Of a stretch of DNA of 41,284 bases, positions 8,682 through 40,643 are shown in pieces. Under the pieces are notes generated by a model. That model searched no databases and was not told the origin of the DNA. It worked only from the letters and a program-made list of their open reading frames with translations. The stretch lies in NCBI GenBank assembly GCA_002686755.1, contig NYYJ01000181.1:1-41284 (forward strand), given 5' to 3'. The position numbers and the translations under genes are program-made. Source of the stretch: Verrucomicrobiales bacterium. Lineage in GTDB: Bacteria; Verrucomicrobiota; Verrucomicrobiia; Limisphaerales; UBA1096. Every line of letters begins with the position of its first letter. The stretch's first letter is position 1.

Positions 8682-11321
8682 ATGAAACGAACCCTCCTCT
8701 TTTTTGCCGCCGCCCTTTCGCTTGGCCAAGCGCACTTGGCCAAGGCGGAACAACATGTCCACGGTATCCAGTGCGGGCACGCCGCCAGCATCTGGGCCAG
8801 CATCGACTCGCCGTCGCAGCGCTACGCTCCAGATCGGGCGGTGGACATCCAGCACTTCGACCTCGACGTCACGCCGGACTTCAAAAACCGGCGCGTGTCC
8901 GGCAAGGCGTCGTTCACGTTTCAGCCGATCCTGAAGCCACTTGGCCAACTGCGACTCGACGCGCACGACCTCGAGATTCACACGGTCACCGGCAGCGCCG
9001 GGATCACGGCGTGGCAAAACACCGACCGCGCGTTGATCGTCACCTTCGCCAAGCCGATCTCCCCGACGTCACAGGCCAAGCTCACCGTCACCTACGAGGC
9101 TGAGCCGAAAAAAGGTCTCTACTTTCGCACGCCGGAGATGGGGTACAACCCCGGCGACACTCACATCTGGACCCAGGGTGAACCGATCGAGGCGCGGCAC
9201 TGGTTCCCGTGCTTCGACGCGCCGAACGAGTTTTTCACATCGACCATGACCTGCCGCGTGCCGGACGGCATGACCGTTCTTTCCAACGGCCGCAAAGTCT
9301 CCGACGCGGTCGACGAGAAAACCAAGCTGCGCGTGATCAAGTGGAGCCAGGAAAAGCCGCACGTCAATTATCTCATCACGCTTGTCGCCGGTCACTTCAA
9401 GCGGCTCGAGGAAAAACACGGCGACCTGTCGATGTCATTCTGGGCGGCTCCGTCCGACTTCGCCAACGCCGCCAACTCGTTCCGTCACACGAAGGAGTGC
9501 ATGGAGTATTTTGAGGCGGAAATCGGCGTGCCGTATCCGTGGGCCAAGTACGACCAGGTCACCGTGCAGGATTTCAACTGGGGAGGCATGGAGAACACCA
9601 GCATCAGCACACTCAACGCCTCGACCCTGTTCAGCAGCGAGACGGAAAACATCCGGAGCAGCCAGGGGCTGATGGCGCACGAATTGGCGCACCAATGGTT
9701 CGGCGACCTCGTCACCTGCAAGGACTGGAGCCAGCTTTGGCTCAACGAGGGATTCGCCACCTACTACACGCACCTGTTCGCCGGGCACAAGGACGGCATC
9801 GACGAGTTCCACTACGGTCTGTACCGCGACCAAAAACGCCTCACGAGCCGCTCTAACGACACCGCACCGATGGTCAACCGCGACTATCAAATCCCGGAGG
9901 ACATGTTCCGCAAATACGGTTTTCTGTCTTACACCAAGGGCAGCTGGATCCTGCACATGCTCCGCTCGCAGCTTGGGCCAGACCTGTTTCGCAAATGCGT
10001 CAAGACCTACCTCGAGCGGCATCGCCACGGCAACGTCGTCACCGAGGATCTGCGCTCGATCATCGAGGAACATTCCGGCCGGTCGTTCGACCGCTTTTTT
10101 GACCAGTACGTTTTCCACGCGCACCATCCGGAATTGAAGATCGCCTACGCGTGGGACGAGAAAGCCAAGCTGGCCAAGATCAGCGTGCAGCAGACGCAAA
10201 AGATCGACGACAACATCCTGCTTTTTCACGTGCCGTTGCCGGTACGTTTCAAGATCGACGGCCAGGCGGTCGACCACACCCTGCCGATCACCAAGCTCGC
10301 CGAGGACTACTACTTCCCCCTGGCCAAGGCGCCGCAAATCGTCCGCATCGACCCCGGCCTCACCCTGTTGGCCAAGATCACCTTCACCCCGCCAACCGCG
10401 CAGCTTCACGCGCAGTTGGCCGACGCCTCCGACGCGCTGGGCCGCCAACTCGCCGTTGAGCACTTGGCCAAGCGCAAGGACAAAACCACCGTCGAAAAAC
10501 TGACGCACGTACTGCGCAACGATCCGTTTTACGGCGTCCGCATCGCCGCTTCGCGGGCACTACGAGGCATTGCCACCGATGCCACCTTGGCCGTGTTGAT
10601 CGACTCGGTCGACCAGCCCAACGCCAAGGTGCGGCAACAGGTCATCGGCGACATCGCCACCCAATACAAACCAGCCGCCTTGGGCGCGCTCAAGCAGAGC
10701 CTGGACAGCGAGAAAAATCCGGCCATCCGCGCCCGCATCATCAGCGGCCTCACCGGGCATGACGACAAGCAGGCGCGCAAGCTGATCGACGCGGCGCTTG
10801 GCTCCGACTCGTTCCGCCACCAACTCGCCGACGCCGCCGTGAGCGCGCTGCGCAAACAGGATCGGCCGGCCAACATCGCCAAGATTCGCGCCGCGCTGGA
10901 GAATGACGGGGCCAAGTTCACCACCCGCGGCTACGCCGGCGCCCTAGGCGCGCTGGGTCACCTTGGCCGCAACCAGAAAAACAAGGCCAAGCTGCGCGAG
11001 TTCCTCGTCGGACACGTGAACAGTCCCAAGCGCCGGGTCGCCCTTGGCGCCATCGACGCGCTTGGCCAACTCGGCGATCCCCGGGCCATCTCCGTGCTGG
11101 AGAAACTCACCGGCGCAGCCGAGGACGATCCCGCCCGAAAAGCCGCCGAGCAGGCGATCGAGAAACTACGCGCGGCCCGCAAGCCGGCCGACGACTACAA
11201 AAATCTTCGCAAGGAAGTCACCAACCTGAAACAAGCCAACTCCAAGCTGACGAAGGAGTTGGGTGACTTAAAAAAACGCTTTGACGCCACGCTCGGCGAC
11301 AAAAAGAGGTCTGAGAAATAA
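8682..11321 (+). CDS. Secreted M1-family zinc aminopeptidase with C-terminal HEAT repeats
   Basis: The 879-residue product has a signal peptide, an M1 peptidase N-domain, the exopeptidase motif GGMEN (residues 301-305), and the zinc site HELAH...E (His333, His337, Glu356; HExxH-x18-E). The family removes N-terminal amino acids from peptides. Residues about 590-840 are Ala/Leu-rich HEAT-like repeats, and the last 35 residues are a Lys/Leu coiled coil. The start ATG 8682 follows TTAGGAAA, a plausible ribosome site. The TTGGCCAA palindrome occurs six times: two copies fall in the signal peptide (SLGQAHLAKA), the others at 8941, 10368, 10464 and 11062, read as LGQ or LAK. High GC codon use contrasts sharply with the upstream genes. 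Confidence 0.93.
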   Translation: MKRTLLFFAAALSLGQAHLAKAEQHVHGIQCGHAASIWASIDSPSQRYAPDRAVDIQHFDLDVTPDFKNRRVSGKASFTFQPILKPLGQLRLDAHDLEIHTVTGSAGITAWQNTDRALIVTFAKPISPTSQAKLTVTYEAEPKKGLYFRTPEMGYNPGDTHIWTQGEPIEARHWFPCFDAPNEFFTSTMTCRVPDGMTVLSNGRKVSDAVDEKTKLRVIKWSQEKPHVNYLITLVAGHFKRLEEKHGDLSMSFWAAPSDFANAANSFRHTKECMEYFEAEIGVPYPWAKYDQVTVQDFNWGGMENTSISTLNASTLFSSETENIRSSQGLMAHELAHQWFGDLVTCKDWSQLWLNEGFATYYTHLFAGHKDGIDEFHYGLYRDQKRLTSRSNDTAPMVNRDYQIPEDMFRKYGFLSYTKGSWILHMLRSQLGPDLFRKCVKTYLERHRHGNVVTEDLRSIIEEHSGRSFDRFFDQYVFHAHHPELKIAYAWDEKAKLAKISVQQTQKIDDNILLFHVPLPVRFKIDGQAVDHTLPITKLAEDYYFPLAKAPQIVRIDPGLTLLAKITFTPPTAQLHAQLADASDALGRQLAVEHLAKRKDKTTVEKLTHVLRNDPFYGVRIAASRALRGIATDATLAVLIDSVDQPNAKVRQQVIGDIATQYKPAALGALKQSLDSEKNPAIRARIISGLTGHDDKQARKLIDAALGSDSFRHQLADAAVSALRKQDRPANIAKIRAALENDGAKFTTRGYAGALGALGHLGRNQKNKAKLREFLVGHVNSPKRRVALGAIDALGQLGDPRAISVLEKLTGAAEDDPARKAAEQAIEKLRAARKPADDYKNLRKEVTNLKQANSKLTKELGDLKKRFDATLGDKKRSEK

Positions 11322-11414
11322 ATAACGGAGAAAAAGTGAAACTTTTTCAAGGCTATTATTGAATAGTCTCAACGCTTGGCCTGTCTGAAACCCAAGCCAC
11401 AAGGCATAAAGATC

Positions 11415-11858: not shown

Positions 11859-11880
11859 CCCACTCGCCAACCTTTTCAGC

Positions 11881-11914: not shown

Positions 11915-12199
11915 ATAACCGCTTGGCCAAGCGCGTGTCGGTTACTTCTCCCAGCGGGAGAAGGTGGCCGCAGGCCGGATGAGGGAGAATGGGAAGTTGT
12001 TTTTCGAGGCTGCCCCGGCTTGGCCAAGCGCTCTCCCTCTCCCGCTTGGAGAGGGAACCGGTTCATTCGTCCTTGGGCATTCCTTGTTCGGTGTTCGATA
12101 TTGATACCGCTTGAGCCTTTTGAATGACGAATCTCGAACAAGGAATGTCCTAATCCCAATCCGCACTCTCCCGCTGAACGTGCCGGATTGGCCAAGCGC
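11915..12199. repeat. Intergenic cluster of palindromes and hairpins
   Basis: No gene is visible here. The stretch holds the full palindrome at 11920-11933 and 12018-12029 and a half-degenerate copy at 12188. A hairpin CTTCTCCC/GGGAGAAG (11945-11952/11956-11963) is followed by GGTGGCCGCAGGCCGGATGA, a type of intergenic repeat familiar from many genomes. CCCTCTCC/GGAGAGGG (12035-12042/12048-12055) forms a second hairpin, and CATTCCTTGTTCG/CGAACAAGGAATG (12078-12090/12135-12147) a perfect 13-bp inverted repeat around 44 bases. The region lies between a + strand terminator and the end of a - strand gene, so it is a transcriptional dead zone where repeats can accumulate. Confidence 0.75.
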
Positions 12200-12544: not shown

Positions 12545-12621
12545 TGGTCGACAGCGAAAGCATCGCTGAAAATGGCGTTGAACTCCAGCCAAACCGTTGA
12601 TCTTAACGTGGATCTTTCCAC

Positions 12622-14845: not shown

Positions 14846-15622
14846 TCATTCCCAGATGCCCTGCTCCTGGAGTTGCTTCTCCGCCTGTTCGGCCCAGCCA
14901 CGGTTGGCGGCGGGGCTGGCCGGGCTGGGATGCAGCACGCGGCCAATTTTCACGTCCGCTTGGCCAAGCACCTCCGCCGCCTTTTTCTCCGCGAACCCGC
15001 CGACGGCCACCAGCCATTCCGGTTGCACGATTTCCACGACCTTGGCCAAGTGCGCGTTGCAGATGGCCTCAAGCGGCCCGGTCTCGGCGGCAGGCAGCTT
15101 GTCCGGCGTGCGGTTGCGGCCGGTCTCCTCGAGGAAGGCCAAGGGACAATAATTCACGACAAAGTGATCGGCAAAAAACGCCTCCGGTTGGACAAACTTT
15201 TCGGCGAAGAATCCCCAGAACCGTCGGCCGCTCACCTCGCTGCGCGGGCAGTCAAGCCCCAATACGGGACGCTTCGGATGCTCGTTTGTCGGCTTGCCGA
15301 TCGGCGCGTCGATGCGCAGCCAGTCGCGCACCGCCGCCACCTCACCGAACGGCACGCCAACCTGCGCCATGCCAAACGGCCCCGGGTTCATGCCGAGAAA
15401 TAACGCGCGCTTGGCCCCGCCGCCGTACCGGCGGAGGAACTGCTCATGCGCCGCCCAAGCGTAATCAAGCGGGTTGTACACGCACTCCACCGGCGGCCCG
15501 AAGTTCAATCGGTTGACGGCATCCCGCAATTCGGCAGCGGCGGCAACAAGCGGAGAGAGGTCGGCTGTGGTCGGCACGCGGGGGTTATAGTCGCGAAGCC
15601 CCCGCTTGGCCAAGGTTAGCAT
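14846..15622 (-). CDS. SMUG1-type single-strand-selective uracil-DNA glycosylase
   Basis: The 258-residue enzyme removes uracil and oxidised pyrimidines from DNA in base-excision repair. The SMUG1 active-site signature is FLGMNPGPFGMAQVGVPFGE, followed by HPKRPVLGLDCPRSEVSG and FWGFF; the C-terminal HPSPASPAANRGW carries the catalytic-loop His. Length matches SMUG1. The start at ATG 15622 puts a palindrome copy in codons 3-6 (TLAKR); a GTG at about 15577 is a possible later start. Two more palindrome copies at 14960 and 15042 read as LGQA and LAK. Confidence 0.92.
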   Translation of the reverse strand: MLTLAKRGLRDYNPRVPTTADLSPLVAAAAELRDAVNRLNFGPPVECVYNPLDYAWAAHEQFLRRYGGGAKRALFLGMNPGPFGMAQVGVPFGEVAAVRDWLRIDAPIGKPTNEHPKRPVLGLDCPRSEVSGRRFWGFFAEKFVQPEAFFADHFVVNYCPLAFLEETGRNRTPDKLPAAETGPLEAICNAHLAKVVEIVQPEWLVAVGGFAEKKAAEVLGQADVKIGRVLHPSPASPAANRGWAEQAEKQLQEQGIWE

Positions 15623-17572: not shown

Positions 17573-18448
17573 ATGTTTTTGGCAACGACACTGCTCAGCG
17601 CGGCGCTTGGCCAAGCGGCCGACATCCGACTGACCGTCGTGCAGGCTGAACCCTTGAAACTTTCGTGGCATACGGCCCCAGTCACCCGACCTGACTCGGT
17701 CCAAATCATTCCCGACACCCAGCTCGAAATATCGACCGATCTCACCCATTGGCAGCCACTTGGCCAAGCGCAAACCGGAGGGCTCCGCACCATGCCGGAA
17801 ACCGTCAACCACACCATCCAATCCGCCGCCAAGGCCCGGTATTTTCGCGTCCGCTCACAGGTCACCCTGCCAAAAGCCAGCCTGGCCAATCACAGCCTCA
17901 TCGCAGCCGACCTGCGAGGCGCTGATCTGCGAGAGGCCAATCTCGCCCATGCCGATCTTGCCTTGGCCAACCTCGATGGCGCGAACCTCGCCGGCGCCAA
18001 TCTCACCGGCGCGAATCTGGCCGAGGCCATACTCGGCAAAGCCGACTTCACCGATGCCGACCTCACCGGCGCAACGATCGCCCCATGGCATCACTACCCA
18101 GAGGTGGTTTATCACAACACCACCCTGCCGGACGGCACCGTGAAAACCGACTCGCCCGAGCGGCAGTTGCTCGTCCAGTTGTATGTCGACAGTGCGCCGG
18201 AGGTGATCTTGGCCGGCCGCGATTTTTCCGGATGGGACCTGCGCGGCGTCGAGTTGCAAAAGCGCGACCTGACGAATTGCAGCTTCACCGGGACCGACCT
18301 GCGTAACACCAAGCTCGACGGGGCGAGCCTCGACGGGGCGAACCTAACGCGCGCCAACCTGCGGGGCGCGACCGGTTTCACGCTAGCCGAGCACGAAGAC
18401 GTGGTCTTGCACCAAACCACCCTCCCCGACGGCACGATCAGCGACTGA
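17573..18448 (+). CDS. Secreted pentapeptide-repeat protein
   Basis: The 291-residue product starts at ATG 17573, after GGGGAGGATTA, and has a signal peptide (FLATTLLSAALGQA). Residues about 45-110 contain a module 'LEISTDLTHWQPL...YFRVRS' that also occurs in two other secreted proteins of this window. Residues about 115-165 and 220-270 are pentapeptide repeats (A(D/N)L-x-x; LRGADLREANLAHADLALAN) expected to form right-handed quadrilateral helices. Two near-identical TTLPDGT(V/I) segments follow each repeat block, pointing to an internal duplication. Palindrome copies at 17607, 17760 and 17963 read as LGQA, LGQA and LAN. Role unknown. Confidence 0.88.
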   Translation: MFLATTLLSAALGQAADIRLTVVQAEPLKLSWHTAPVTRPDSVQIIPDTQLEISTDLTHWQPLGQAQTGGLRTMPETVNHTIQSAAKARYFRVRSQVTLPKASLANHSLIAADLRGADLREANLAHADLALANLDGANLAGANLTGANLAEAILGKADFTDADLTGATIAPWHHYPEVVYHNTTLPDGTVKTDSPERQLLVQLYVDSAPEVILAGRDFSGWDLRGVELQKRDLTNCSFTGTDLRNTKLDGASLDGANLTRANLRGATGFTLAEHEDVVLHQTTLPDGTISD

Positions 18449-18456: not shown

Positions 18457-19857
18457 TCAATCGTCGAGCCATGTGAATTGAACGGCGTCGGCTTCTCCGG
18501 TCAGGTGAACTGCGCGGTCGCCGACGAGCAGGTGCATCTCCTGTCCGGCCTCCTGCGGCCCGGCGAGGTTTGGCAGCAGTCCGCCGTAATGATTACCGCG
18601 AAACCGATGCGGATCGACCTCGCGCTGCCATCCGCCCGCATCGTCCTGAAACAGCCGCAGGCCCACGCTTGCGCCGTGCAGCAGGATGCCCCGCGCCGCT
18701 GACTTCGATTCTCCGTCGAACACGAACCGGTTGCCCTCCACCACGAATCCGCGCGTGTGATCCCAGAGCCGCAGGCCGTTGTGCCAATACGCAAACCGCG
18801 GCGCATGCGGTGCGATTAACCGGAAGGTGTTGTCCCTGATCACAAACGCCTTGCCGTCGTTGACGCTGCCGCCGCCGACGCAGGCGAAGAACCGATTGTC
18901 GCGGATCACCACACCGCGGTTGCCGCCGGTGTCGAAGTTGAACCCGATGCCGCAGTTCGTGACGGTGTTTTCGTAAAACTCCGCGCGCTGCAGGAACGCC
19001 CCGCCGAACGCAATACCGTTGGGGATGTTCCGAATCTCGTTGTGATGCACCCGTACCTGAACCGTGCCGTCCAAGTCCGCGCCCCGGTGGCTGACCATGA
19101 TCCCGGTGCAGTACGGCCAGGCAGTCCCGGTGCTTGGCCCGCGGACAAAGTCCTCCACCACGCAATGCCGGATCTCGATGACCGAGTCGCGATAGCCGGG
19201 CAGGTTGGCCCCGTCGCCCATGCCGGAAATGATGCGGATTGGGAACACCTCACGCCACGACGGTCGCCCACCCACCGCGCCGAACCGACTAACCCGCACC
19301 CGTTCCACCAGCGTCTGCCTGGCCAGCAGGTCAATGCCGGACGCCTTCTTGAGGATCGGGCCAAGCGCCGCCTTCATGACGCGCCAATTGCAGTCGAGCG
19401 ACAAGTCCGCGACGCGGATGTTGTCAAAATCACGACTGGCCTGCCGCTGCGGCCCCCAACCGCCGGCGATCACGCTGTGATAGGCGGACTTGATTTTCCG
19501 GTGACCCGGCCCCGGCACGAGCTTGAGGGTCGTCGTACCGATGCCGGCCCCGACGATGTGCCAGCGGGGACGCAGCCGGATGCCGTGCGTCTCGTAGTCG
19601 CCCGGCAAAAAGCGCAGTACCAGCCCGTCGCCGTAATGACCCTGCTCCCCGGCCAAGCGATCAAGCGCCTGGCCAAGCTTGGCCGCGGTCGAGGCGTCGA
19701 CCGGCTCGGACGCTGTCGAGCCGTCCCCGAAGGATGCACCTACCGCCGCAAGCCAAACCGTGCGCTCCGGCGCGCTTGGCCAAGCGATCTCCTGCGCCCG
19801 GGCGCTTGGCCAAGCGGCGGCCAAGGCAACGACACAGAGTTGGAACAGCAATCGCAT
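18457..19857 (-). CDS. Secreted right-handed parallel beta-helix protein
   Basis: The 466-residue product starts at ATG 19857 with a signal peptide (LLFQLCVVALAAAWPSARAQ); a longer frame to 19917 exists but dilutes it. The opening GASFGDGSTASEPVDAST resembles the start of pectate-lyase-like beta-helix proteins, and later segments are the usual ladders (VEIRHCVVEDF, VRVHHNEIRNIPNGI, FYENTVTNCGIGFNF, VIRDNRFFAC, VEGNRFVFDG). Such proteins bind or cleave polysaccharides; no catalytic set is evident. Two palindromes (19806, 19776) fall in the first 30 codons and both read as AWPS; a third lies just upstream at 19866. Confidence 0.88.
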   Translation of the reverse strand: MRLLFQLCVVALAAAWPSARAQEIAWPSAPERTVWLAAVGASFGDGSTASEPVDASTAAKLGQALDRLAGEQGHYGDGLVLRFLPGDYETHGIRLRPRWHIVGAGIGTTTLKLVPGPGHRKIKSAYHSVIAGGWGPQRQASRDFDNIRVADLSLDCNWRVMKAALGPILKKASGIDLLARQTLVERVRVSRFGAVGGRPSWREVFPIRIISGMGDGANLPGYRDSVIEIRHCVVEDFVRGPSTGTAWPYCTGIMVSHRGADLDGTVQVRVHHNEIRNIPNGIAFGGAFLQRAEFYENTVTNCGIGFNFDTGGNRGVVIRDNRFFACVGGGSVNDGKAFVIRDNTFRLIAPHAPRFAYWHNGLRLWDHTRGFVVEGNRFVFDGESKSAARGILLHGASVGLRLFQDDAGGWQREVDPHRFRGNHYGGLLPNLAGPQEAGQEMHLLVGDRAVHLTGEADAVQFTWLDD

Positions 19858-19965
19858 CACTACGCTTGGCCAAGCTTGGCCCCGGGCCAATCGTTCGTCA
19901 ATCGAGCGCCGAACCACGACGCGAAAGCGTGACTTTTTTGGTTGAGGCAGCGTACTCTCCGCGTG

Positions 19966-20990: not shown

Positions 20991-22931
20991 GTGAACAGGA
21001 GGACACTGGACAGTTTTTGCGAGCGGGGCATCGTCGGGCTGGTGCTTGCCGCGCTGGTCTTCTCGGCGCTGGCCACGGGGGCGGTCCGGGCGCTGGAGTT
21101 CGCGGTGGCCGAGTGGCTCGTGGCGGGCGCGGCCCTGCTGTGGGTGGCCCGTCTCTGGCTGGAGCCCCGGCGCAACCGGCTGCTGTTCCCGCCGGTCGGC
21201 GTCTGCCTGCTGCTGTTTCTCGCGTACGCGCTGTTTCACTACATGCAGGCGGATGTCGAGTACACGGCCCGCGGAGAGGTGCTGCGCCTGCTGGTCTACG
21301 CGCTGCTGTTTTTCGTGGCGCTGAACAACCTGCACAAGTCGGAGTGGACGCAGTTGACGCTGTACGTGCTGGTGTTCACCGGCGTGGCGATCGCCTTGTA
21401 CGGTATCGTGCAGGTGATCGCGGGGCTGGATCACGTGTGGCACTTCACCCGGCCGGAACAGTACCGGGGGCGCGGCTCGGGGACGTTCATCAACCCGAAT
21501 CATTTTGCCGGGTACCTGGGGATGCTGCTGCCGCTCTGCCTTGCGGCTGTGTTGACCGGCCGGATCAGCCAGCCGATACGCATCCTGCTGGGCTACTCGG
21601 CGCTGCTGCTGCTGGGCGGCGTGGCGGTGAGTATGTCGCGCGGCGCCTGGGTCTCAACCACCCTGACCTTGGCCGCAGTCATCGGCGTGTTGGGCTGGCG
21701 GAAACAGTTTCGAATGCGGGGCATCCTGCTGACCTGCCTGGCGCTGGGCCTCGCGGGAGGGTTCCTGTTGAACTCGAACATTGCACAAAACCGTCTGCGG
21801 GATGCGAACACACCGGGCACCGCGGGTCACGTCGGCTCGCGCATCGAGTTGTGGGGAGCAGCGGCGAAGGTGTGGCAGGAGGAAAAATTGCTCGGCGTTG
21901 GGCCGGGGCATTTCGACCATCGATTCCCGGCGCACCGGCCGGAGCGGCTGCAGTCGCGCCCGGTACGGGTGCACAACGATTATCTCAACACGCTGGTGGA
22001 CTGGGGGCTGGCTGGCATGCTGCTGGCCGGGCTGATGCTTGGGACAATGGTTTCCGGGATTGTTCGAAGCTGGAAATATTCGCAGCGCACCTCGAGCAGC
22101 CTCTCGGCCAAGACCAGCAACCGCTCGGCCTTCGTGCTGGGCAGCACGGCGGGGCTTGGCTCGATCGCGCTGCATTCGTTTACTGACTTCAATCTGCACA
22201 TCCCCTCAAACGCCATGCTGGCCGCGACACTGGCGGGGCTGCTGGCGGCGTACATCCGGTTCGCCACGGAGCGGTACTGGGTGGCCGTGCGGCTGCCGAT
22301 GCGCCTGGCCGTGACTGCGGTGGTCGGCAGCGTGTCGATCCTGCTGATGAGCCAGGCGCTTGGCCAAGCGCGGGAAATCGCCCGGCTCAACGCCTCGCAG
22401 GAGGCGGAAACCTTTCCCGAGCAGGTCACGGAGCTTGAACAGGCGATGGCGGTCGAGCCGAACAACTTCGAGACCGCCGCGTTGCTGGGGGAGATTCACC
22501 GACGGCGCGCCGGGGATGCCGGTGCGGCCGCGCGACGGGTCGAACTGAAAAAGGCGGCTGGCTGGCTGAACCGGGCGATCGCGCTCAACAAGTACGACGC
22601 CTATTCGCACGCGCGGCTGGGCATGACGCTGGCCCAGCTTGGCCAAGCGGAAAAGGCCGGGGAATATTTTGCCGAGGCAGAAAAACTCGATCCCAACGGC
22701 TACCTGACCGTGACCAACGTCGGCTGGCATAAGATGCACATCGGCGAATTCGCGGAGGCCAAGCGGTACTTTGAACGAGTGTCCCCGCTGGACGACCCAG
22801 CCACCGAGGAGGATGAGCGGAAAAACGGCCTCGTGGCGGATCGGTCCGAACAAATCGCCAAAGACTTGGCCCGGCACATCCGGGAGTCCTACCTACCGTA
22901 CATCAACGAGCAGTTGAAAAACCCCGAGTAA
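20991..22931 (+). CDS. O-antigen ligase/Wzy-like polytopic membrane protein with TPR tail
   Basis: The 646-residue protein starts at GTG 20991. Residues 1-455 contain about ten membrane segments with the O-antigen ligase/polymerase pattern (FHYMQADVEYTARGEVLRLL, RGSGTFINPNHFAGYLGMLL, then LGVGPGHFDHRFPAHRP, VHNDYLNTLVDWG). These match the Wzy_C/WaaL family that joins sugar repeat units at the periplasmic face. Residues about 470-646 form tetratricopeptide repeats. Palindromes at 22360 and 22639 read as LGQA. The partner genes kdsB and the sugar transferase are 8-11 kb downstream. Confidence 0.88.
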   Translation: MNRRTLDSFCERGIVGLVLAALVFSALATGAVRALEFAVAEWLVAGAALLWVARLWLEPRRNRLLFPPVGVCLLLFLAYALFHYMQADVEYTARGEVLRLLVYALLFFVALNNLHKSEWTQLTLYVLVFTGVAIALYGIVQVIAGLDHVWHFTRPEQYRGRGSGTFINPNHFAGYLGMLLPLCLAAVLTGRISQPIRILLGYSALLLLGGVAVSMSRGAWVSTTLTLAAVIGVLGWRKQFRMRGILLTCLALGLAGGFLLNSNIAQNRLRDANTPGTAGHVGSRIELWGAAAKVWQEEKLLGVGPGHFDHRFPAHRPERLQSRPVRVHNDYLNTLVDWGLAGMLLAGLMLGTMVSGIVRSWKYSQRTSSSLSAKTSNRSAFVLGSTAGLGSIALHSFTDFNLHIPSNAMLAATLAGLLAAYIRFATERYWVAVRLPMRLAVTAVVGSVSILLMSQALGQAREIARLNASQEAETFPEQVTELEQAMAVEPNNFETAALLGEIHRRRAGDAGAAARRVELKKAAGWLNRAIALNKYDAYSHARLGMTLAQLGQAEKAGEYFAEAEKLDPNGYLTVTNVGWHKMHIGEFAEAKRYFERVSPLDDPATEEDERKNGLVADRSEQIAKDLARHIRESYLPYINEQLKNPE

Positions 22932-22945: not shown

Positions 22946-25900
22946 CTACTCGTCTTCCCAGTCGATTTTCACCGCGCCGTAATTGCCCAGCGGCAGCCAC
23001 AGGCCGGACTCGACGCTGCCGGCCGCGTTATCCACATTGAACCAGAGGCAGCCGTCCAGCCCACCCGTTGCCTCAACGGAGAGTGACGCCGGGTTTGTGG
23101 TGTCGAACAAGTGCAGCGTGCGGTTGTTGTCCTGCCCCACGAGGCGACCGCCGATGTCGGCGAGATACCGGATGCCGAGCTCCAGCTCGATCTCGTCCAG
23201 CAACGCAAACTGCGCCGTCTCGTCGAGCGCGAGCGACTGCAAATAATAGGTTGTGACATACCGCGTGCCGTCCTCCTCGTTCGGTTTCACCTCCTCCTGC
23301 TCGGTGTACGCCATGTACAGCGTGCCGTCGCTGGCAACCTTGTGCGACTGCGGCCAGCGTTGCGGCTGCTCGATTGAATCGACGAGGTACGCCTCCAGCC
23401 CGTCGTACGAGCTGGCGTCGATCCAGTTGCCGTCCCACTTGTGCTCGTCCGTCCAGTGCGAGCCCTGCGTGTAAAGCAGTGCGCCGCCGTGCGACGTGCC
23501 GATCAGCGTGCCTGGGATCGGTGTCGCGTCGCGCACGACCGGGTTGAACATGTCGGAGTAGTCGACCACGTGCAGCTCGTAACTGGTGATCCAGTATCCG
23601 CGCGGCCTGGGTTGCGGCTTGGGTTCGTCGGGGTTCGGCTTGTCGGGATCTGGTTCGGGATCGTTGGGATCCGGCTCGTCGTCCCCGCCCTGTTCCTCCT
23701 CCTCCGGTTCCGGCTGGACGTATTCCGAGTGCTGGCTGCTGAGGTAGACGAGGCCGTTGTCGTTAAGGATCGCCTCGCTGAAATTCCAGCGGTTGGCGTA
23801 CCGCAGTTTTTGATCGTCGTTTTCCTCAACCGAGAGGTTGACGGAGGAAGCCAGGCTCGGCTTGGCGGCGTCACCAACGTCGAAACATATCAGTTGACCC
23901 GCGCTCCCGCCGTAATAGCCGGGCCACCAGGCATCGCCAGCCACATCAATGGCGTCGATCATCGGTCCGCCCCAGCCCCAGTAGCGGTAACCGCCGGCGT
24001 TGGACCACAGCAGCTTGCCGGCACTTGGCCAATTGGCCTTGAACTGGTTACTCCAGCCCATGTTCTTGTCCACCAAAGCCAATTCCCCGATCACGGTCAA
24101 CTCCGGCAGCTTGGCCAAGTCGATCACCGTCAGGAACACGTTGGGCTTTGGCTCCTCCGGCTCCGGTTCCTCCTCGTTGCCACCCTCATCGTCATTACCC
24201 TCTTCTGGTTTCTCAGGAACTGGTTTGGGATTGGCCGACTGGAACGCCTCTGTCTGCAGCAGGTACAGCTTGTCGCCGTTCACCGAGGCGCCGGATAGGT
24301 AGGCGGTCCGCGGCAGCACCACGCGGCCCAGCGCGGTATCGGGATCCCCCGGCGCAGCGACGCGGATCGACGGCCCGCCCTGCTCGCCAAAATACCAGTT
24401 TGAGCCCTTGGCCAACTGCAGCAGGTAGTCGCCGGTCGGGATGACCTGATCGACCGTCCAAGCCAGCTCGACCTCGCTCTTCACAACCGGGTCGTCGCGG
24501 TCGGTCGCATCCACCGTCAGCAGTTCCTTGCCGGAGATCGACAGGATGTAATCCTGATACTCCGTGGCACGGCGCGGCTGCAGCGCGTGTGCGATGACCC
24601 CGCGCTTGACCAGCGTCTTCTCGTTTAGATCGATGATCTGGACGTTCTTCACGTAGCCACCCTCCTCGCGGCCCTGATACGGCACGAGGATCAGCCCGGC
24701 GTGCGGCAGCACGGTGAACGCCTTCTCGTCGTACTGCGCCTCGCTCCACGACCAACGGTCGCCCATGGTGACCTTGTCGAACAGCTTCGGCTGGGTGACA
24801 TCGCTCACGTCGAACAGCGACACGGCGACACGGTTGCCATTGTTTGTGTCGTCCACGCCGATTGACACCAGCCGGTCGCCCAGTGGCTGGATGTAAGTGG
24901 ACCAGCCCGGCACCTCCAGTTCTCCCTTGATCTCCGGGTTGCGCGGGTCGGACAGGTCGACGATCCACAACGGATCGATCCGCTCGTAGGTCACGATATA
25001 CACCCGGTCGGCGTCGAAGCGCGTGGCAAACAGCCGCTCGCCCTTGGCCAGGCTCACCTCGCCCAGCGCCTTGGGCTTGTGCGGATTGGCCAGACTGAAC
25101 GTCTCAAGCGTGGTCAGCCAGCGGTTGCGATTGTCATCACTATTACGGTTCAATTCCTCCGAGATGACTGTGAGTGTGTCGCCGCTCAAGCGCATCTTGA
25201 ATTTGTCCGCCACGCGGCCGGCGGTGCGGATGGTGGCCGCCTCCTTCATCGTGCCGTTCGGTGCGGAGATGTCGATGCAGCGCAGATCGGTCTTGTAATA
25301 CTGTTTCACGACCGCCGTGGAGACGAACAGGAACTGATCCGTGGCATAGATGTCGTTGTTGTAGCCACTGTAAAACAACGTATCACGCTCGACCGGCTTG
25401 GCCGGGATTTTCAGGTCGAACGACGTCACCTGCGTGCCGTGCTCCCACCGAACGTAGGTGTCGCCAGTCTTTGGGTTGATCGTCTCCCGTTGGACATACG
25501 TTTGCGAGGCGATGTAAAGCGCGGTGCCGACGAGGCGGCTTTCGCGGATGTAACCCTTCACCGGCACGCTGGAGGCAATGACCGGCGTGTCGGCGGTGAC
25601 GTCAACAATGATCGCCTGGCTCTCGGCGTCGTTGCCCCACCAGTTGCAGCCGTCGCGGGCGAGCAGAATCACGTGGTCGTCGCCCAGCGTGTACATCTGC
25701 TCGCCGGCGGCCGGCATCGGCAGCACGCCGCGAATGACCGGGTTGTCCTTGTCCTTCAGGTCGATCACCTGCAGGCCGCGGAGAGTGTTGAAAAAATACA
25801 GCGTGTCGTTGTGAATGCTCCAAATGTCGGACTCAACAACATCGCGTGGGGCACCATCGTCAGCCTTGCCAGCGTCGGCTGTCTCGGCCACAGAATCGAA

Positions 25901-26374: not shown

Positions 26375-26694
26375 GATACGGTTCCGTGAAAAAAGCCCCT
26401 TCCCGGATTGCCTCTTGCGGCAAACAAACACCCGCTTGGCCAAGCCGTCAAGGCGAGGAGCCGGCACCAACCCCGGCGTGATTCGATTGATTAGTTCAAT
26501 TGTTTTCATTTTAGTTCCTATTATGTTTGTTATTTATCTTGTTCCCAATGGTTTACGCTTAAAATCCTGCCGGTCATCACAGCTTGCCAATGCGGGAATC
26601 GGCCGCGCCCGCTACCCAACGGGCGCGGCCTCTTTTCTGGTGTGTCCTCAACTGTTAACCAGACCCGATAAATCATCGCTCACTCCTTGCCTTA
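26375..26694. other. Intergenic stretch with palindrome and hairpin
   Basis: This 320-base gap contains one full 12-mer palindrome (26434-26445), an AT-rich stretch (26510-26560) that probably holds the promoter of the - strand beta-propeller gene (CATAAT on the - strand near 26523-26528), and a strong hairpin at 26601-26630. If translation starts at 26509 rather than 26374, the left part is coding. Confidence 0.55.
26601..26638 (+). terminator. Strong GC hairpin, terminator-like
   Basis: GGCCGCGCCCG (26601-26611) pairs perfectly with CGGGCGCGGCC (26620-26630) around an 8-base loop, followed by TCTTTTCT on the + strand. The gene ending next to it (26695) runs on the - strand, where no T-run follows. 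It may still stop that transcript by stem strength. Confidence 0.5.
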
Positions 26695-28662
26695 TTAGTC
26701 TCCGACCGTGAACTCGATGCTCAGCAGCCCAAATTGCCCCTCGTTCGACTCGCTCACATTGGCTTGGACGAACGCCGTCGTGCCGTTTTCGGTTGTGGCC
26801 CGTAGCTCGATAAAATAGGTGGTGGCGTTCCGCGACTTGGCCCCGGTGACGGCGACGATTCGCTCCAGTTTCAAGCCGTGCTCGGCCGCCGGTTCCTGGC
26901 CGAGGACAAACTCGGCCAAGCGCTTGGCCAAAGGCGAACCGGCCTCGACCGGGTTCAACTCGACACGCCCCGGGGTGGCGGAAGCAAAATCGGCGTCACC
27001 GGCTTCAGGTGCCTCCCTGAATTCAAGCGGCACGACGGTGATCCCCAACTCCGACTGCGTGAATGCCGTCAGCAGTTCAGTCTGGTTCGTCTCCGGGTTC
27101 GTTCCCACCTCGGCAAACACCGTCGCCGCCTCGCCCTCCGGCGTCGCGAGACTCAAGACCAGATGATCCGACGCCGATCCCGTCTCCCTGCTGGAAACCA
27201 CCTCGACCAGTGACCAGTTTTTCCCGGTGCGTTCATTCAGGTAAGCCAACGCGATCCCGGCGGATGCAGCGGAGCGGTCCGCGTTCACCGCACCCGGCGC
27301 GAGGGACAGGTCTTCATCGAACTCGACCGACTTCGTGCGACGAATCATCTCCCACCGGTCATCCACGTTGATCTTCGTCACGAATGGCATTTTTTGAACG
27401 CCGGCCTCGCCGAGTTCGGCGTAGACCGAAACCGGCTGCTGCTGCTCGTTTTTGCCGCGCAACTCGACCAAATATTGGGGGCCGAAAATAGGCGGCAACA
27501 ATCGTACAACCGAATCCACGGTCGCCCCGGTGACGTTGCGGCCGTCGATGTTCAAGCGCGCCAGCACGGTCTTGGCCAGGTTCTGCGCCAGTTGGCTGCC
27601 GGGTTCGATCGGCTTGCCTCCGCTGTAATCGAACACGCCCGGCGAAGCCAACTCCCTCGGGGTCAACCGGACGCGGTAAAACAGCGCCGCAGGCCGGTTC
27701 TCCCGGGAGTCGACCCAGTCGACGAATTCGCCTTGGCCGTCGATTTCCTCGACCGTGCTCCAGTTGGCCAAGTCGGCCGAGACCTGCACGGACAAGGTGA
27801 AGTTGTTGGCCCCGAACAACCGGATTTTCACCGGCGCGTCCGGCTCCGGGCCAAGGAAGATCGGCGGCAGCGCAAAGATGGGCGGGAGGCCGTTGACCAC
27901 CGAGTCGCCGGGAAACAGTTGAATCGAAAACCGCTCAACCGAGGCCGCCACGATCGGGCGCTTGGCCAAGCCGGCCCTGCGGATGATGTCCAGTTCGTAT
28001 CCCGACCGATCCGCCTTGGCCGGGAGCGGCTCGGCCAGATACACCAGCGTGTGGCCGGCCGCCTCATCGCGTTGGACGCGAAACCGGTCCCGGTCCGCGC
28101 CCTCGAGCGCGATCTCCGACCCCAAGCTGTCGGTGAACACCACGCCGTGCGGCAGCCACGTCTCCAGGTTCAATCCGTGGGCGGCCGGCTTGGCCGTGTC
28201 GTAAAAAGCATTTTCCGGAACCTGAACGGAATACTCGATCAACTCCTCGGGCAAGAAGGCCGGTGAGGCCGCGCTTGGCTTGAGGGAGAGTTGATGCCCG
28301 GTCGCCCCTGCGGTCAGGATGACGGCCCCCTCCGGCCCCTTGGCCAAGGCGTACTGGCGGGAGATGAGATCCACCGAAAAGACGGCATCCTCGCTCGACA
28401 AGGAACGAAACCGGATCGTGCTATCGGCGGGATCGACCGACCAGACGCCGCGGCCGTCTCCTCCGGCGGAGGTCAGCAACGGGTAAGGCGAATAAAACCG
28501 GCCCTCCGGGGAGATGTACAGGACGACCTCCCTGCCAAGGGAGTCGGTGCCCTTCCACACCGCCGGCTCCTCGAAAAACTGGGCCTTGGCCAAGCCGGAG
28601 CAGAGGCAGAACAGGGATACCGCCATGCCGAACGCCCTTCGACTTTGTTGGCTCAAAACCAT
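26695..28662 (-). CDS. Large secreted protein of unknown function
   Basis: The 655-residue product has a signal peptide (FGMAVSLFCLCSGLAKAQ); ATG 28626 is an alternative start just before the hydrophobic core. The middle (about residues 275-335) contains LSVQVSADLANWSTVEEI followed by LFYRVRLTP, the same 'sDLxxWxxv...FRV' module seen in the pentapeptide protein and in the protein at the right edge. The second half carries three related segments of about 90 residues ending in VELRGKNEQQQ-, LSLATPEGEA- and IELRATTENG-type strands, each preceded by a basic-acidic helix, suggesting an internal triplication. No family recognised. Five palindrome copies lie in it (26934, 27764, 27962, 28340, 28586), all in the LAK/LAN frame. 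Confidence 0.78.
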   Translation of the reverse strand: MVLSQQSRRAFGMAVSLFCLCSGLAKAQFFEEPAVWKGTDSLGREVVLYISPEGRFYSPYPLLTSAGGDGRGVWSVDPADSTIRFRSLSSEDAVFSVDLISRQYALAKGPEGAVILTAGATGHQLSLKPSAASPAFLPEELIEYSVQVPENAFYDTAKPAAHGLNLETWLPHGVVFTDSLGSEIALEGADRDRFRVQRDEAAGHTLVYLAEPLPAKADRSGYELDIIRRAGLAKRPIVAASVERFSIQLFPGDSVVNGLPPIFALPPIFLGPEPDAPVKIRLFGANNFTLSVQVSADLANWSTVEEIDGQGEFVDWVDSRENRPAALFYRVRLTPRELASPGVFDYSGGKPIEPGSQLAQNLAKTVLARLNIDGRNVTGATVDSVVRLLPPIFGPQYLVELRGKNEQQQPVSVYAELGEAGVQKMPFVTKINVDDRWEMIRRTKSVEFDEDLSLAPGAVNADRSAASAGIALAYLNERTGKNWSLVEVVSSRETGSASDHLVLSLATPEGEAATVFAEVGTNPETNQTELLTAFTQSELGITVVPLEFREAPEAGDADFASATPGRVELNPVEAGSPLAKRLAEFVLGQEPAAEHGLKLERIVAVTGAKSRNATTYFIELRATTENGTTAFVQANVSESNEGQFGLLSIEFTVGD

Positions 28663-28845: not shown

Positions 28846-29535
28846 ATGGCGGACAAGGGCAATGGTCTGAATAAGGGTGAGAAAACCCGTTTTTTGCTGC
28901 TGGACACTGCGGAGCGGTTGTTTGGCCAAAACGGCGTGACAGCCACGTCGTTGCGGGAGGTGATGAAGGTGGCGGATGTGAACATGGCCATGGTTCATTA
29001 CTATTTCAAAAACAAGGACGGCCTGCTGGACGCCATTCTGGAGCGTCGTCTCGTGCCGATCAATCAGGCCCGCCTGAATTTGCTCGGAAAATACGCGCTC
29101 GAGACCGGGGGTCAACCCATCACGATGGAAAACATCATCCGCGCCTACGTCGAGCCGTTCATCCGGCTGCGCGACAACGCCGACGAGGGCGGCGCCGATT
29201 TTCTCAAGCTCTTCGCTTGGCTGCGGATGGAGCCGAACTTCACCTATCACCAGTTGATGAAAAAGCATCTGGGCGATTCGCTGGCGGCGTTCCAAAAGGA
29301 ACTCAAGCGGTCGCTCCCGGACAAGACCGATGAGGAACTCAACTGGAAGTGGGCGTTCCTCGGGGGGACGGTGGTCATGACGATCACGCTGATGGACCAG
29401 ATCGACTGGTTCAACGACGAGGGCGACATGGGCGGCAGCGCCGACTGGATCATCCAGAATCTCGTCAATTACACCGCCACCGGTTTCGCGTCCACCTTCG
29501 CTCCGGAGCCGGTTCCGGCAGGTAGACCAAGCTGA
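28846..29535 (+). CDS. TetR-family transcriptional regulator
   Basis: The 229-residue protein has the N-terminal TetR helix-turn-helix (KTRFLLLDTAERLFGQNGVT, then SLREVMKVADVNMAMVHYYF and KNKDGLLDAIL) and a ligand-binding C-terminal domain of the CerR/DUF1956-like type (LLRM, FTYHQLMKKHLGDSLAAFQK). The ligand is unknown. It is divergent from the large secreted-protein gene at 26695-28662, which makes that gene the first target candidate. A TTGGCCAA core at 28922 lies within TTTGGCCAAAA and is the most degenerate copy. Confidence 0.93.
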   Translation: MADKGNGLNKGEKTRFLLLDTAERLFGQNGVTATSLREVMKVADVNMAMVHYYFKNKDGLLDAILERRLVPINQARLNLLGKYALETGGQPITMENIIRAYVEPFIRLRDNADEGGADFLKLFAWLRMEPNFTYHQLMKKHLGDSLAAFQKELKRSLPDKTDEELNWKWAFLGGTVVMTITLMDQIDWFNDEGDMGGSADWIIQNLVNYTATGFASTFAPEPVPAGRPS

Positions 29536-29552: not shown

Positions 29553-29577
29553 CGCTTGGCCAAGCGCTTGGCCAAGC
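29553..29577. repeat. Two abutting copies of the 12-mer palindrome
   Basis: GCTTGGCCAAGC occurs at 29554-29565 and again directly at 29566-29577 between the TetR gene and the end of the transglutaminase-like gene. The pair is itself a larger palindrome and could form an extended hairpin or cruciform between the convergent genes, but no T-run follows. Confidence 0.95.
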
Positions 29578-30459: not shown

Positions 30460-30652
30460 CAATTGGTCAGGGCAGATTTAATCACCCGGCCGCCGGGCTG
30501 GCAACCCGGAGTTATTCACATGGTGCAGACCAAATAGCCGATTCTTCCGCAAAAAAAGGGAACCCTTTGACCTCTGGCCACGATTTGGGGTAATCATCCC
30601 TGTCCGCAAAGGACGCCCAGCTTGGCCAAGCGCCACCGCCGGGCGTACGACA

Positions 30653-33006
<2,354 letters not shown>

Positions 33007-33776: not shown

Positions 33777-35171
33777 ATGCTGCGCAACCAACGACGAGTC
33801 CAGACAGGCATCCACAAGGTGCTCGACGGATTGGTTTTTGCCATCAGCCTTTGGCTGGCGCACGGAATGCGCCAGGTGCTGCACTTCGAGGTGTTCGGCG
33901 GTACGGCTGAGATCGCACCCTTTGAGGGGGCGTACGTCTGGATCAGCCTCCTGCTTCTGTTTGTGGCCCCTTTCATCCTGGACACGCAGGGGTTCTACTC
34001 GCGATCCGCTTGGCCAAGCCGGGCACAAACCGTCTGGCCATTGGCCAAGGCCTCCCTGCTCATCACCCTGCTCATTATCACCGTGATGTTCGTCTTCAAG
34101 ATTCAGTTGACCCGATCGGTGATCCTGATTTTTGCCGTGCTCAGCATCGCGCTGGCCTGGGCCAAGGAGGAGGCATCCATTCGCTGGCAGCGGCGGCGCC
34201 TGACCCGCGCCGACCTGCAGAAACGAATCATCCTCCTCGGCTCGCCGGAGGAAACGCAGGCCATGCTCGGTCGCATCGACGATGCCAACGACACGAGCTA
34301 CCGCGTCGTGCTGCAGTTCAACATCGACCGCGACCCGATCGAGCGCCTCCTGCGCCTGATGCACGAGCATTCCGCCAACGTCGTCCTTATCAACGCCGGC
34401 CACACCAAGTTCGACCTGATCGAGCAGGTCATCAACGCCTGCGAACTCGAAGGTGTCGAGGTGTGGCTTGCCGCCGATTTTTTCAACACGCAGATCGCGC
34501 GCACGGCGGTGGATGATTTTCACGGCGTCCCGCTGCTGGTGTTCCACTCCGCGCCGGCCGCCTCGCTGCAGGGCTTGGCCAAGCAGATGATCGACTTCGC
34601 CGGGGCGCTGGCCCTGCTCGTGCTGCTTTCGCCGGTGCTGCTGGGATGCGCCCTGCTGGTGAAGATCACCTCGCCCGGCCCGATCCTGTTCCGCCAAAAA
34701 CGCAGTGGCATCAACGGCCGCCCGTTCACCATGTACAAGTTCCGCTCGATGGCCACCAACGCCGAGCAGCGCAAACACGAGCTGGCGGCAATGAACGAGA
34801 TGAGCGGTCCGGTGTTCAAGGTCGCCAACGACCCACGCATCACGCCGGTCGGCCGGTTCCTGCGGCGGTTCAGCCTCGACGAGTTGCCCCAGTTGTTCAA
34901 CGTACTCCAAGGTGCCATGAGCCTCGTCGGTCCGCGGCCGCTGCCGGTGGACGAAACCAAGCGCTTCGAGGACCTTGCCCACCGCCGCCGCCTCAGCGTC
35001 AAGCCGGGCCTCACCTGCTTGTGGCAGATCAGCGGCCGCAACGAGGTGAAGGAATTCTCCGACTGGGTGCGCCTCGATCTCGAGTACATCGACAACTGGT
35101 CGCTTTGGCTCGACATCAAGATCCTCTTTCGCACCATCCCGGTCGTGTTCATCGGCACCGGCGCGAAGTGA
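33777..35171 (+). CDS. Polyprenyl-phosphate sugar phosphotransferase (exopolysaccharide initiation)
   Basis: The 464-residue membrane protein starts at ATG 33777. Four to five N-terminal membrane segments precede a CoA-binding-like cytosolic domain (RIILLGSPEETQAMLGRI), another membrane helix (ALALLVLLSPVLLGCALLV) and the catalytic domain of bacterial sugar transferases (SPGPILFRQKRSGINGRPF, MYKFRSM, VANDPRITPVGRFLRR, SLDELPQLFNVLQGAMSLVG, PRP). The enzyme places the first sugar phosphate on undecaprenyl phosphate for O-antigen or exopolysaccharide. Palindromes at 34011, 34041 and 34575 read as AWPS, LAK and LAK. Confidence 0.95.
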   Translation: MLRNQRRVQTGIHKVLDGLVFAISLWLAHGMRQVLHFEVFGGTAEIAPFEGAYVWISLLLLFVAPFILDTQGFYSRSAWPSRAQTVWPLAKASLLITLLIITVMFVFKIQLTRSVILIFAVLSIALAWAKEEASIRWQRRRLTRADLQKRIILLGSPEETQAMLGRIDDANDTSYRVVLQFNIDRDPIERLLRLMHEHSANVVLINAGHTKFDLIEQVINACELEGVEVWLAADFFNTQIARTAVDDFHGVPLLVFHSAPAASLQGLAKQMIDFAGALALLVLLSPVLLGCALLVKITSPGPILFRQKRSGINGRPFTMYKFRSMATNAEQRKHELAAMNEMSGPVFKVANDPRITPVGRFLRRFSLDELPQLFNVLQGAMSLVGPRPLPVDETKRFEDLAHRRRLSVKPGLTCLWQISGRNEVKEFSDWVRLDLEYIDNWSLWLDIKILFRTIPVVFIGTGAK

Positions 35172-35236: not shown

Positions 35237-35905
35237 ATGGAGTTGTTATTCATCGGATTCGCGGCGGGATTCGTCCACGTGCTCAGCGGGGCAGACCACT
35301 TGGCCGCGCTGGCGCCATTTACCGCACGCCGCGAACAGCAGGCCGCGTGGCGGCTGGGCCTCCATTGGGGCATCGGCCACGCCGGCGGGGTGGCGTTGAT
35401 CGGCCTGCTCGTCTGGCTGCTCAAGGGCACCGCCGCCGCCGAGTGGCTCTCCAGCGGCGCGGAATGGCTGGTCGGCGCGGTGCTGGTGGCGGTCGGCGCG
35501 CTGGGCATCCACTCCCTGCTGCGGCATCGCGTCCACACCCACGAGCACGATCACTTCGGCATTCGGCACACGCACATCCACGCGCACCTTGGCCAAGCGG
35601 ACCCTGCCGCCAGTCATCACCACTCCCATGCCGCGCTGGGTATCGGCCTGCTGCACGGCGCCGCTGGGGGTACTCATCTCTGGGTGGTGCTGCCCACATT
35701 GGCCATCGCCAGTTTCGGCGGCGTGGCCCTTTACCTCGCCGCCTACGCGCTGGCCACAGTCGCGGCGATGACCCTGTTCTCCGCCGGACTGGGCCGCTTG
35801 GCCAAGCGCTTGGCCAACCGCAGCCCACGGCTTGGTCACGGCTTCGGCCTGGCCTGCTGCTCCGCCTCCCTGCTCGTCGGCGGCTACTGGCTGCTCGCCG
35901 GTTGA
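35237..35905 (+). CDS. NicO/UreH-like metal transporter
   Basis: The 222-residue polytopic protein has membrane segments with HVLSGADHLAALAPF, GLHWGIGHAGGVALIGLLVW and GIGLLHGAAGGTHLWVVLPT. A His-rich loop (residues about 95-135, with HTHEHDH, HTHIHAHLG and SHHHSH) fits nickel/cobalt or other divalent metal handling. Similar proteins belong to the NicO/RcnA and UreH-like group. The metal and direction are uncertain. Two palindrome copies at 35798 and 35810 lie 12 bases apart near the C-terminus and give RLAKRLANR. Confidence 0.85.
   Translation: MELLFIGFAAGFVHVLSGADHLAALAPFTARREQQAAWRLGLHWGIGHAGGVALIGLLVWLLKGTAAAEWLSSGAEWLVGAVLVAVGALGIHSLLRHRVHTHEHDHFGIRHTHIHAHLGQADPAASHHHSHAALGIGLLHGAAGGTHLWVVLPTLAIASFGGVALYLAAYALATVAAMTLFSAGLGRLAKRLANRSPRLGHGFGLACCSASLLVGGYWLLAG
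35796..35817. repeat. Tandem palindrome copies inside the transporter gene
   Basis: GCTTGGCCAAGC at 35796-35807 is followed without a gap by GCTTGGCCAA at 35808-35817. The arrangement matches the abutting pair at 29554-29577, but here it is inside coding sequence. Confidence 0.95.
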
Positions 35906-36945: not shown

Positions 36946-37666
36946 TCCGACGCACAACCGATTCCCGCTTGGCCAAGCTCTGGCGCTGCTGGCGATCGCC
37001 GGGCTCCTCGGCGGTTGCGGCGGTGACCCCTTGGCCAAGCCCGGCTTTCACCAAGTCAATGAACGCCACCTGTTTGTCAACAGCCTCGGCATGCAGTTCG
37101 TCCCGCTGCCCGGCGGCGACGCCTGGATCAGCGTCTGGGAGACCCGCGTTGCCGACTACGCCGCCTTTGCCCGCGCCACCACCAACGGCTGGCAGTCCGC
37201 CTGGTTTCAGGACACTGACCGCCACCCCGCCGTCAATGTCTCGTGGGACGACGCTCAAGGCTTCTGCGCCTGGCTCAGCCAGCGCGAACGGGCAACCGGC
37301 CTGCTCGCCGACCACGAAGGCTACCGCCTGCCGACCTCCGACGAATGGACCGCCGCGCTTGGCCAAGCGCAGCCAGCCGACACCGCCAACTTCGGCCCGA
37401 AAACCGGCAGCGACAATTTCGAGCGCACCAGCCCGGTCGGCTCGTTCCCCGGCAACACGCTGGGCCTGCACGACCTGCGTGGCAATGCCTGGGAATGGTG
37501 CACCGCCTGGCCAAGCGAGGAGGGCATCGGCCGCATCCTGCGCGGCGGCGGCTGGCGCGACGACTCCCCCGACCTGCTCTACCCCGCCCGCGAACTCCTC
37601 GTCACCCCCAAGAGCGCCACCGAAGACTACGGCTTCCGCTGTATCCTCGTCCTCAAGGCGCGGTAA
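36938..37666 (+). CDS. FGE/SUMF1-like lipoprotein lacking catalytic cysteines
   Basis: The 242-residue product has a lipoprotein signal (ALLAIAGLLGGCGG) and an FGE-sulfatase domain (SLGMQFVPLPGGDAWISVWE, HPAVNVSWDDAQGFCAWLSQ, YRLPTSDEWTAAL, GNAWEWC, RILRGGGW, YGFRC). True formylglycine-generating enzymes have two Cys in the segment after RGG; here it reads RGGGWRDDSPDLLYPARELL with none. It is therefore probably a binding or structural member of the fold. Overlap with the upstream gene implies cotranscription. Palindromes at 36969, 37031 and 37369 read as LGQA, LAK and LGQA. Confidence 0.85.
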   Translation: MPDPTHNRFPLGQALALLAIAGLLGGCGGDPLAKPGFHQVNERHLFVNSLGMQFVPLPGGDAWISVWETRVADYAAFARATTNGWQSAWFQDTDRHPAVNVSWDDAQGFCAWLSQRERATGLLADHEGYRLPTSDEWTAALGQAQPADTANFGPKTGSDNFERTSPVGSFPGNTLGLHDLRGNAWEWCTAWPSEEGIGRILRGGGWRDDSPDLLYPARELLVTPKSATEDYGFRCILVLKAR

Positions 37667-37784
37667 AAACTCAGAGGATCTTCGGGGCGACTAATTATTC
37701 ACAATTCGGGAATCTCGCTTGGGACGGTTTCGGTTGTCCCGTACATTGGCCGCAGGGTGGCAGCGCCCCCATTCAAGGATCATT

Positions 37785-40643
<2,859 letters not shown>

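Follow-up and report, generated by a model that had tools for sequence, protein, structure and literature searches.

An Iterated Palindrome in a Genus of Marine Verrucomicrobiota, with Clustered Copies and Helical Phasing in Three Genomes

Introduction

Ever since the description of HIP1 in 1995, the purpose of highly iterated palindromes has been debated; the leading explanation links them to DNA methylation. HIP1 (GCGATCGC) and the alternative cyanobacterial HIPs are perfect, GC-rich palindromes that occur about once per kb, mostly within genes, with palindromic flank extensions and variation chiefly at the outer bases. They are widespread in their group, with loss in some lineages, and their over-representation ranges from about 500 to 2,500 copies per Mb. 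According to the methylation model, each genome possesses a methyltransferase for its word, and modification-directed repair creates the word (PMC4390886).

Uptake sequences represent another type of abundant word. The DUS of Neisseriaceae and the USS of Pasteurellaceae are taxon-limited words of about 10-12 bp, found about once per kb and with many genic copies. The known uptake sequences are non-palindromic, and these and other driven words display a graded one-mismatch spectrum (PMC1939737), while specific uptake is documented in Neisseriaceae and Pasteurellaceae only (PMC12616744). Chi is oriented, non-palindromic and read by a host recombination nuclease. The chromosome sites of SlmA and Noc are palindromes of 12-14 bp, bound by dimers and present in tens of copies per genome. 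REP and mobile palindromes are extragenic, form hairpins and spread by insertion, and the over-represented AACCGTTnnAACGGTT palindrome of Caldithrix abyssi, whose function is unassigned, is REP-like, avoids genes and has 38 exact copies (PMC5317091).

The motif described here, the 12-mer GCTTGGCCAAGC with its core TTGGCCAA, shares with the HIPs all of the general features listed above, and in the sampled parts of two genomes, G000 and G008, its density of 1,062-1,134 cores per Mb falls within their range. It differs from HIP1 in sequence, in having no matching methyltransferase among the families searched, and in being clustered and helically phased. The likeness to HIP1 drawn in an earlier, sequence-only reading of this DNA consequently stands for abundance, palindromy and genic placement, and fails for methyltransferase linkage and spacing. 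With DUS and USS the motif has in common its taxonomic restriction, length, density, genic copies and graded one-mismatch excess, and a tentative further parallel is that comEC and dprA are not detectable in the motif-poor genomes, which are incomplete and mostly of one clade; unlike them, it is palindromic, clustered and phased, and it occurs in Verrucomicrobiota. Its palindromy leaves it without the orientation of Chi. It resembles the SlmA and Noc sites in palindrome length and in its spread over the chromosome, but reaches about 1,000 cores per Mb. Like the Caldithrix word, it is an over-represented palindrome outside the cyanobacteria, although with more than 1,500 12-mers that are mostly genic, and it departs from REP and mobile palindromes in being about 80% intragenic and in turning over by substitution.

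The Motif in the 41-kb Window

The window is the whole stretch of DNA analysed, 41,284 nucleotides of contig NYYJ01000181.1. It contains 48 cores, the first at 8722-8729 and the last at 39388-39395, whereas dinucleotide shuffles average 0.92 and never exceed 4. Half of the cores (24/48) lie inside the full 12-mer, whose copies span positions 8720 to 39397. A recount reproduced exactly the 48 cores and 24 12-mers of the sequence-only reading, and the shuffled mean agrees with its claim that the 8-mer should occur less than once by chance.

Sites are given in window coordinates and without a strand. A 12-mer at 8720-8731 is followed by a core at 8736-8743, 14 bp from it, and by cores at 8941-8948, 10368-10375, 10464-10471 and 11062-11069. 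The 12-mers at 11921-11932 and 12018-12029, both intergenic by the gene calls of this analysis, precede a core at 12188-12195; a 12-mer at 14958-14969 precedes cores at 15042-15049 and 15606-15613, and another at 17605-17616 precedes cores at 17760-17767 and 17963-17970. A triplet of 12-mers spaced 30 and 60 bp opens at 19774-19785, has its middle copy at 19804-19815 and ends at 19864-19875. Beyond it lie 12-mers at 22358-22369 and 22637-22648, cores at 24025-24032, 24111-24118 and 24408-24415, a 12-mer at 26434-26445, cores at 26924-26931 and 27764-27771, a 12-mer at 27960-27971, and cores at 28340-28347, 28586-28593 and 28922-28929. The 12-mers at 29554-29565 and 29566-29577 form an abutting tandem pair. 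They are followed by 12-mers at 30620-30631, 30765-30776 and 34008-34019, the last with a core 31 bp away (34041-34048), and then by a 12-mer at 34573-34584 and a core at 35589-35596. The 12-mer at 35796-35807 belongs to an abutting tandem pair, and the core at 35810-35817 is 12 bp from the preceding core; 12-mers at 36967-36978 and 37357-37368 enclose a core at 37031-37038. The remaining sites lie inside the GcvP gene, namely cores at 38883-38890 and 39350-39357 and 12-mers at 38915-38926, 38966-38977 and 39386-39397.

Positions 1-8719 hold no core and have a GC content of 45-57%. Positions 1-8700, mostly at 45-52% GC, encode a 1,088-aa ankyrin-repeat protein, a sulfatase, and an 868-aa protein with a weak prolyl-oligopeptidase/dienelactone-hydrolase match; this motif-free part looks like a recent acquisition. 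No tRNA was found in the window.

The word itself is a perfect palindrome over 8-14 bp, with the consensus CGCTTGGCCAAGCG and information that drops beyond 12-14 bp; GC content is 50% for the 8-mer and 67% for the 12-mer. Across roughly 448 kb sampled from G000 and G008, one-mismatch variants occur in a graded excess, strongest at the outer bases and weakest at the central GG/CC; their observed-to-expected ratios are 3.4-5.9 at position 1 and only 0.9-1.7 by position 4. Around the sites, no accessory element was found except the abutting tandem copy. In the G000 and G008 samples, AAGCGCTT ranks second among over-represented palindromes, its excess arising partly from the junctions of abutting motif copies.

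Abundance and Taxonomic Limits

The window's own assembly (G000; 3.50 Mb in 197 contigs) contains 1,539 12-mers against 3 copies of a reversed control word. Among 20 congeneric genomes, 17 contain 144-1,837 12-mers and three (G001, G005 and G019) are motif-poor, with 6-13; all the genomes are incomplete MAGs, and G000 and G008 were sampled, with about 1 Mb read. A class-wide sample of 384 genomes gave at most 13 copies outside the genus, and the order's 37 other families gave 0-10. The 484 cores counted in about 448 kb of G000 and G008 exceed about 46-fold the 10.4 predicted by a third-order Markov model whose training sequence had the motif masked. The over-representation that the sequence-only reading proposed to check against a Markov model in the genome and its relatives was thus found, and the single-contig assembly artefact it had considered is excluded by the spread of the 12-mers over the assembly and the congeners. 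Extrapolating from 1,062 per Mb, we infer about 3,700 cores per genome.

Genomic GC content varies inside this one genus from about 41% in the motif-poor G001, G005 and G019 to 62% in G000 and G008, and motif density tracks it, with about 110 cores per Mb at 41% GC, 269 at 50%, about 720 at 58% and about 1,100 at 61%. At 41% GC, the motif is still the top or second over-represented palindrome, with a 2-3 fold excess.

A GTDB scan for close motif pairs returned, among the matches listed, nearly all Verrucomicrobia-type marine MAGs, one of them titled Pedosphaera sp., in support of a placement in Verrucomicrobiota; no close motif pairs were found in viral contigs. One non-Verrucomicrobia contig among the matches listed, PMXB01000365.1 of Acidobacteriaceae bog_172, bears two 12-mers within 33 bp, which may reflect chance, mis-binning or another carrier. 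Another family of the order (f24; 3-13 12-mers) was considered as a second carrier and rejected, cores being at background in samples of two genomes. Within the window's own assembly, the 10,239-bp contig G000:C25 is motif-free and encodes a cation efflux protein, an FTR1/cytochrome c protein, an outer-membrane efflux protein and an HlyD-type protein, representing either an acquired metal-efflux island or a mis-binned contig. A literature search gave no relevant use of the word among the matches listed, and none of the papers searched paired "highly iterated palindrome" with Verrucomicrobia.

Placement in Genes and Turnover by Substitution

By a simple codon-score gene caller written for this analysis, whose boundaries are approximate, about 81% of sites are intragenic, and intergenic DNA is about twofold denser in sites. 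The reading phases of genic sites are uneven (159, 111 and 16), the rare phase encoding Trp-Pro. Density reaches 1,977 per Mb in the first 60 nt of genes against about 830 per Mb beyond 300 nt, an excess that could reflect relaxed constraint as well as function. When codons were shuffled with proteins held fixed, 25.8 cores were obtained against 279 observed, and the top enriched tripeptides (LGQ, GQA, AKR and LAK) are 4-6 fold over-represented in the G000 and G008 samples. Together, these results indicate a pressure on DNA that pulls protein sequence after it. Composition-based protein analyses of this genus will therefore be skewed by motif-made tripeptides.

In syntenic alignments, gained and lost sites are mostly one or two substitutions apart in gap-free sequence. 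Retention exceeds that of equal-GC control 8-mers in most motif-rich species, with values of 0.67 against 0.34 in G008 and 0.62 against 0.145 in G010 at 75% identity. In a larger set, 231 of 432 site comparisons, which share ancestry, retained the site, about twice the rate of control 8-mers (0.26). A phased partner brings no gain in conservation (0.51 for such sites, 0.60 for single ones), a result that selection on pairs would leave unexplained. In a GcvP tree, the motif-poor G001, G005 and G019 form one clade with a support of 1.00, and under midpoint rooting this clade adjoins G010 with a support of 0.73. Because it nests among motif-rich lineages, loss of the motif appears likelier than late gain, with the root of the tree not fixed.

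Clustering and Helical Phasing

Copies of the motif are clustered. Relative to uniform and gene-aware nulls, pairs are too frequent at distances under 200 bp and too scarce at 300-1,100 bp; gene layout was rejected as the cause, the gene-aware null leaving the clustering intact. Pair distances form a ladder near 21, 31, 41, 52, 62, 72, 82, 103, 115, 136, 147 and 157 bp. The 424 pairs separated by 14-200 bp gave an R of 0.33 and an nR2 of 46.6, compared with a maximum of 10.5 in 500 jitters that preserved codons by shifting sites by multiples of three bases. A period of 10.44 bp was obtained (bootstrap 95% interval 10.38-10.50), in line with B-DNA and incompatible with the 10.8 bp periodicity of alpha-helices; the mean phase is near zero, corresponding to whole turns, and phasing fades by 200-300 bp.

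Since the species share ancestry, tests on single genomes matter. They gave nR2 values of 10.6 in G000 and 30.5 in G008, neither reached in 2,000 nulls (0/2,000 each), and 6.0 in G010 (2/2,000); no phasing was detected in G015 with 26 pairs, and in the window alone, with 18 pairs only, it was not significant. Phasing is also present in pairs not located in one gene (n=102, R=0.35), in pairs with both members intergenic (n=76, R=0.41), and for partial sites near perfect ones. Alpha-helix periodicity was rejected as its cause on account of the period and of the phased intergenic pairs. Abutting copies, 12 bp apart, make up the most frequent close spacing (38 pairs), and this distance does not equal a whole turn. 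A comparison of phase between newly gained and shared sites yielded few pairs. Other frequent 8-mers were used as a phasing control, in which one unrelated word only had at least 40 pairs. HIP1 controls, which are plasmids and not chromosomes, displayed no phasing in pAQ7 (287 sites; R=0.03, n=52), where close pairs are depleted (52 against 82 expected), or in the small sample from Kovacikia pA (260 sites; R=0.12, n=29).

Helical phasing supports protein binding in general, and its simplest reading is a protein in contact with multiple sites along the same side of a stiff stretch of DNA. Reading of the sites by a protein on one face of the helix is very likely. Palindromy together with phasing points to a symmetric, probably dimeric reader, and such a protein probably reads several sites together on that face.

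Candidate Roles of the Motif

Of the four roles proposed in the sequence-only reading, a DNA uptake signal and a chromosome-organising site stay the leading candidates. Natural transformation is ranked first among the roles considered, because uptake drive explains thousands of copies that overrule protein sequence. Although this assignment is tentative, GCTTGGCCAAGC may be the site of a symmetric protein that binds several copies and serves self-recognition during transformation. A symmetric, probably dimeric, sequence-specific protein would bind GCTTGGCCAAGC through the core TTGGCCAA, engaging several sites on one face, and a surface receptor would prefer fragments with one or more same-face sites. 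As such fragments were preferentially taken up and recombined, molecular drive would spread the word; it would settle wherever proteins tolerate it and would decay in a lineage that loses competence. The distribution of competence genes leans toward uptake, suggesting, and only suggesting, a link between comEC/dprA and motif richness. Among motif-rich genomes, 9/17 carry comEC and 12/17 carry dprA, both genes being found in 0/4 of the motif-poor set, which consists of G001, G005, G019 and the intermediate G020 (144 12-mers), grouped with them after the counts had been seen. At least one of the two genes occurs in 13/17 motif-rich and 0/4 motif-poor genomes (Fisher p=0.012), in a comparison of incomplete genomes that represents mostly one clade. 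The probability that incompleteness removed both genes from all four is about 2e-5 if the genes are universal and gaps are independent and random. The comEC of G000 is an open frame with both conserved domains. The 46-fold excess with its graded one-mismatch spectrum, the surplus over codon-shuffled genes, the above-control retention with turnover by substitution, and the phasing also speak for this reading. Nevertheless, the association is close to one event because three of the four motif-poor genomes form one low-GC clade, and with this clade set aside, genomes with and without dprA show no significant difference in density (p=0.15). Other points against uptake are the palindromic form of the word, the restriction of documented specific uptake to Neisseriaceae and Pasteurellaceae, the conservation of phased sites being no better than that of single ones, the lack of a detected receptor, and three motif-rich genomes of 83-88% completeness (G006, G009 and G014) without detectable comEC, G009 being without dprA too.

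Palindromy and phasing place next to uptake, and as a slightly less probable role, a chromosome-organising or global regulatory function, in which a cytoplasmic dimer would bind same-face clusters of sites and bridge, wrap or loop DNA, selection keeping the sites. The perfect 12-14 bp palindrome, the clustering and its phasing over short range, the pair deficit at longer range that gene layout does not explain, the phased partial sites, and the roughly twofold density of intergenic and gene-start sites over deep-genic ones all speak for it. On the other side, no candidate protein was found, phased sites are no better conserved than single ones, and this function by itself does not account for the missing comEC and dprA of motif-poor genomes. 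Moreover, no architectural protein is known to us that has sites by the thousand at an enrichment of about 46-fold.

A by-product of the HIP type, in which a GGCC-specific modification steers mismatch repair and so creates palindromes (the model of PMC4390886), is favored by the resemblance to HIP1 in density, palindromy, flank extension and outer-base variation, but appears unlikely in view of both the modification genes and the spacing. Across 21 congeneric genomes, the C5 methyltransferase family PF00145 was found in one, the N4/N6 family PF01555 and the D12 family PF02086 in none, and the N6_Mtase family PF02384 as three borderline hits only; DndB was found in 0/21 and Vsr in 1/21. The methylation target suggested by the sequence-only reading receives no support from these counts, though a methyltransferase of another family may be present. 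The sole C5 cytosine methyltransferase of the genus lies at G008:C53:508-1560, in one species, and the sole Vsr-family match at G017:C118:5404-5580. The HIP1 plasmids are unphased, and the scarcity of close pairs in pAQ7 is the reverse of the clustering observed here. A mobile or selfish palindromic element inserting its own copies, also raised by that reading, would agree with the high copy number and with the tandem pairs at exactly 12 bp; it is nonetheless very improbable, as most gains and losses involve one or two substitutions in gap-free alignments instead of insertions, and conservation does not extend beyond about 14 bp. Least probable of all is a cause at the protein level, whereby favored peptides or alpha-helix periodicity make the words and their spacing. 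The predominance of genic sites and their strongly unequal reading phases are in its favor, whereas codon shuffling with fixed proteins yields ten times fewer sites, intergenic DNA is richer in them, and the period and the phased intergenic pairs contradict a helical-protein origin. As a sole cause, it is refuted by the intergenic sites.

Conclusions

The evidence summarized here makes it fairly probable that the motif is a helically phased address code running through the genomes and genes of this genus, either a third and palindromic uptake signal or thousands of same-face docking sites for a chromosome-organising protein. Either reading, if true, would constitute a whole-genome sequence signal of a kind not described so far, and an uptake signal would be the third independent one and the first outside Proteobacteria. 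The motif attains the abundance of HIPs without the usual methyltransferase families, whereas the leading HIP model is tied to methylation. What is new is the clustering within 200 bp combined with helical phasing, a physical clue that implies a multi-site reader on one face and turns the function of iterated palindromes into a testable question. The large-scale change of protein sequence by the motif matters for reading the coding sequence of these marine bacteria, and if its role is DNA uptake, sequence-specific transformation would have evolved in a third lineage.
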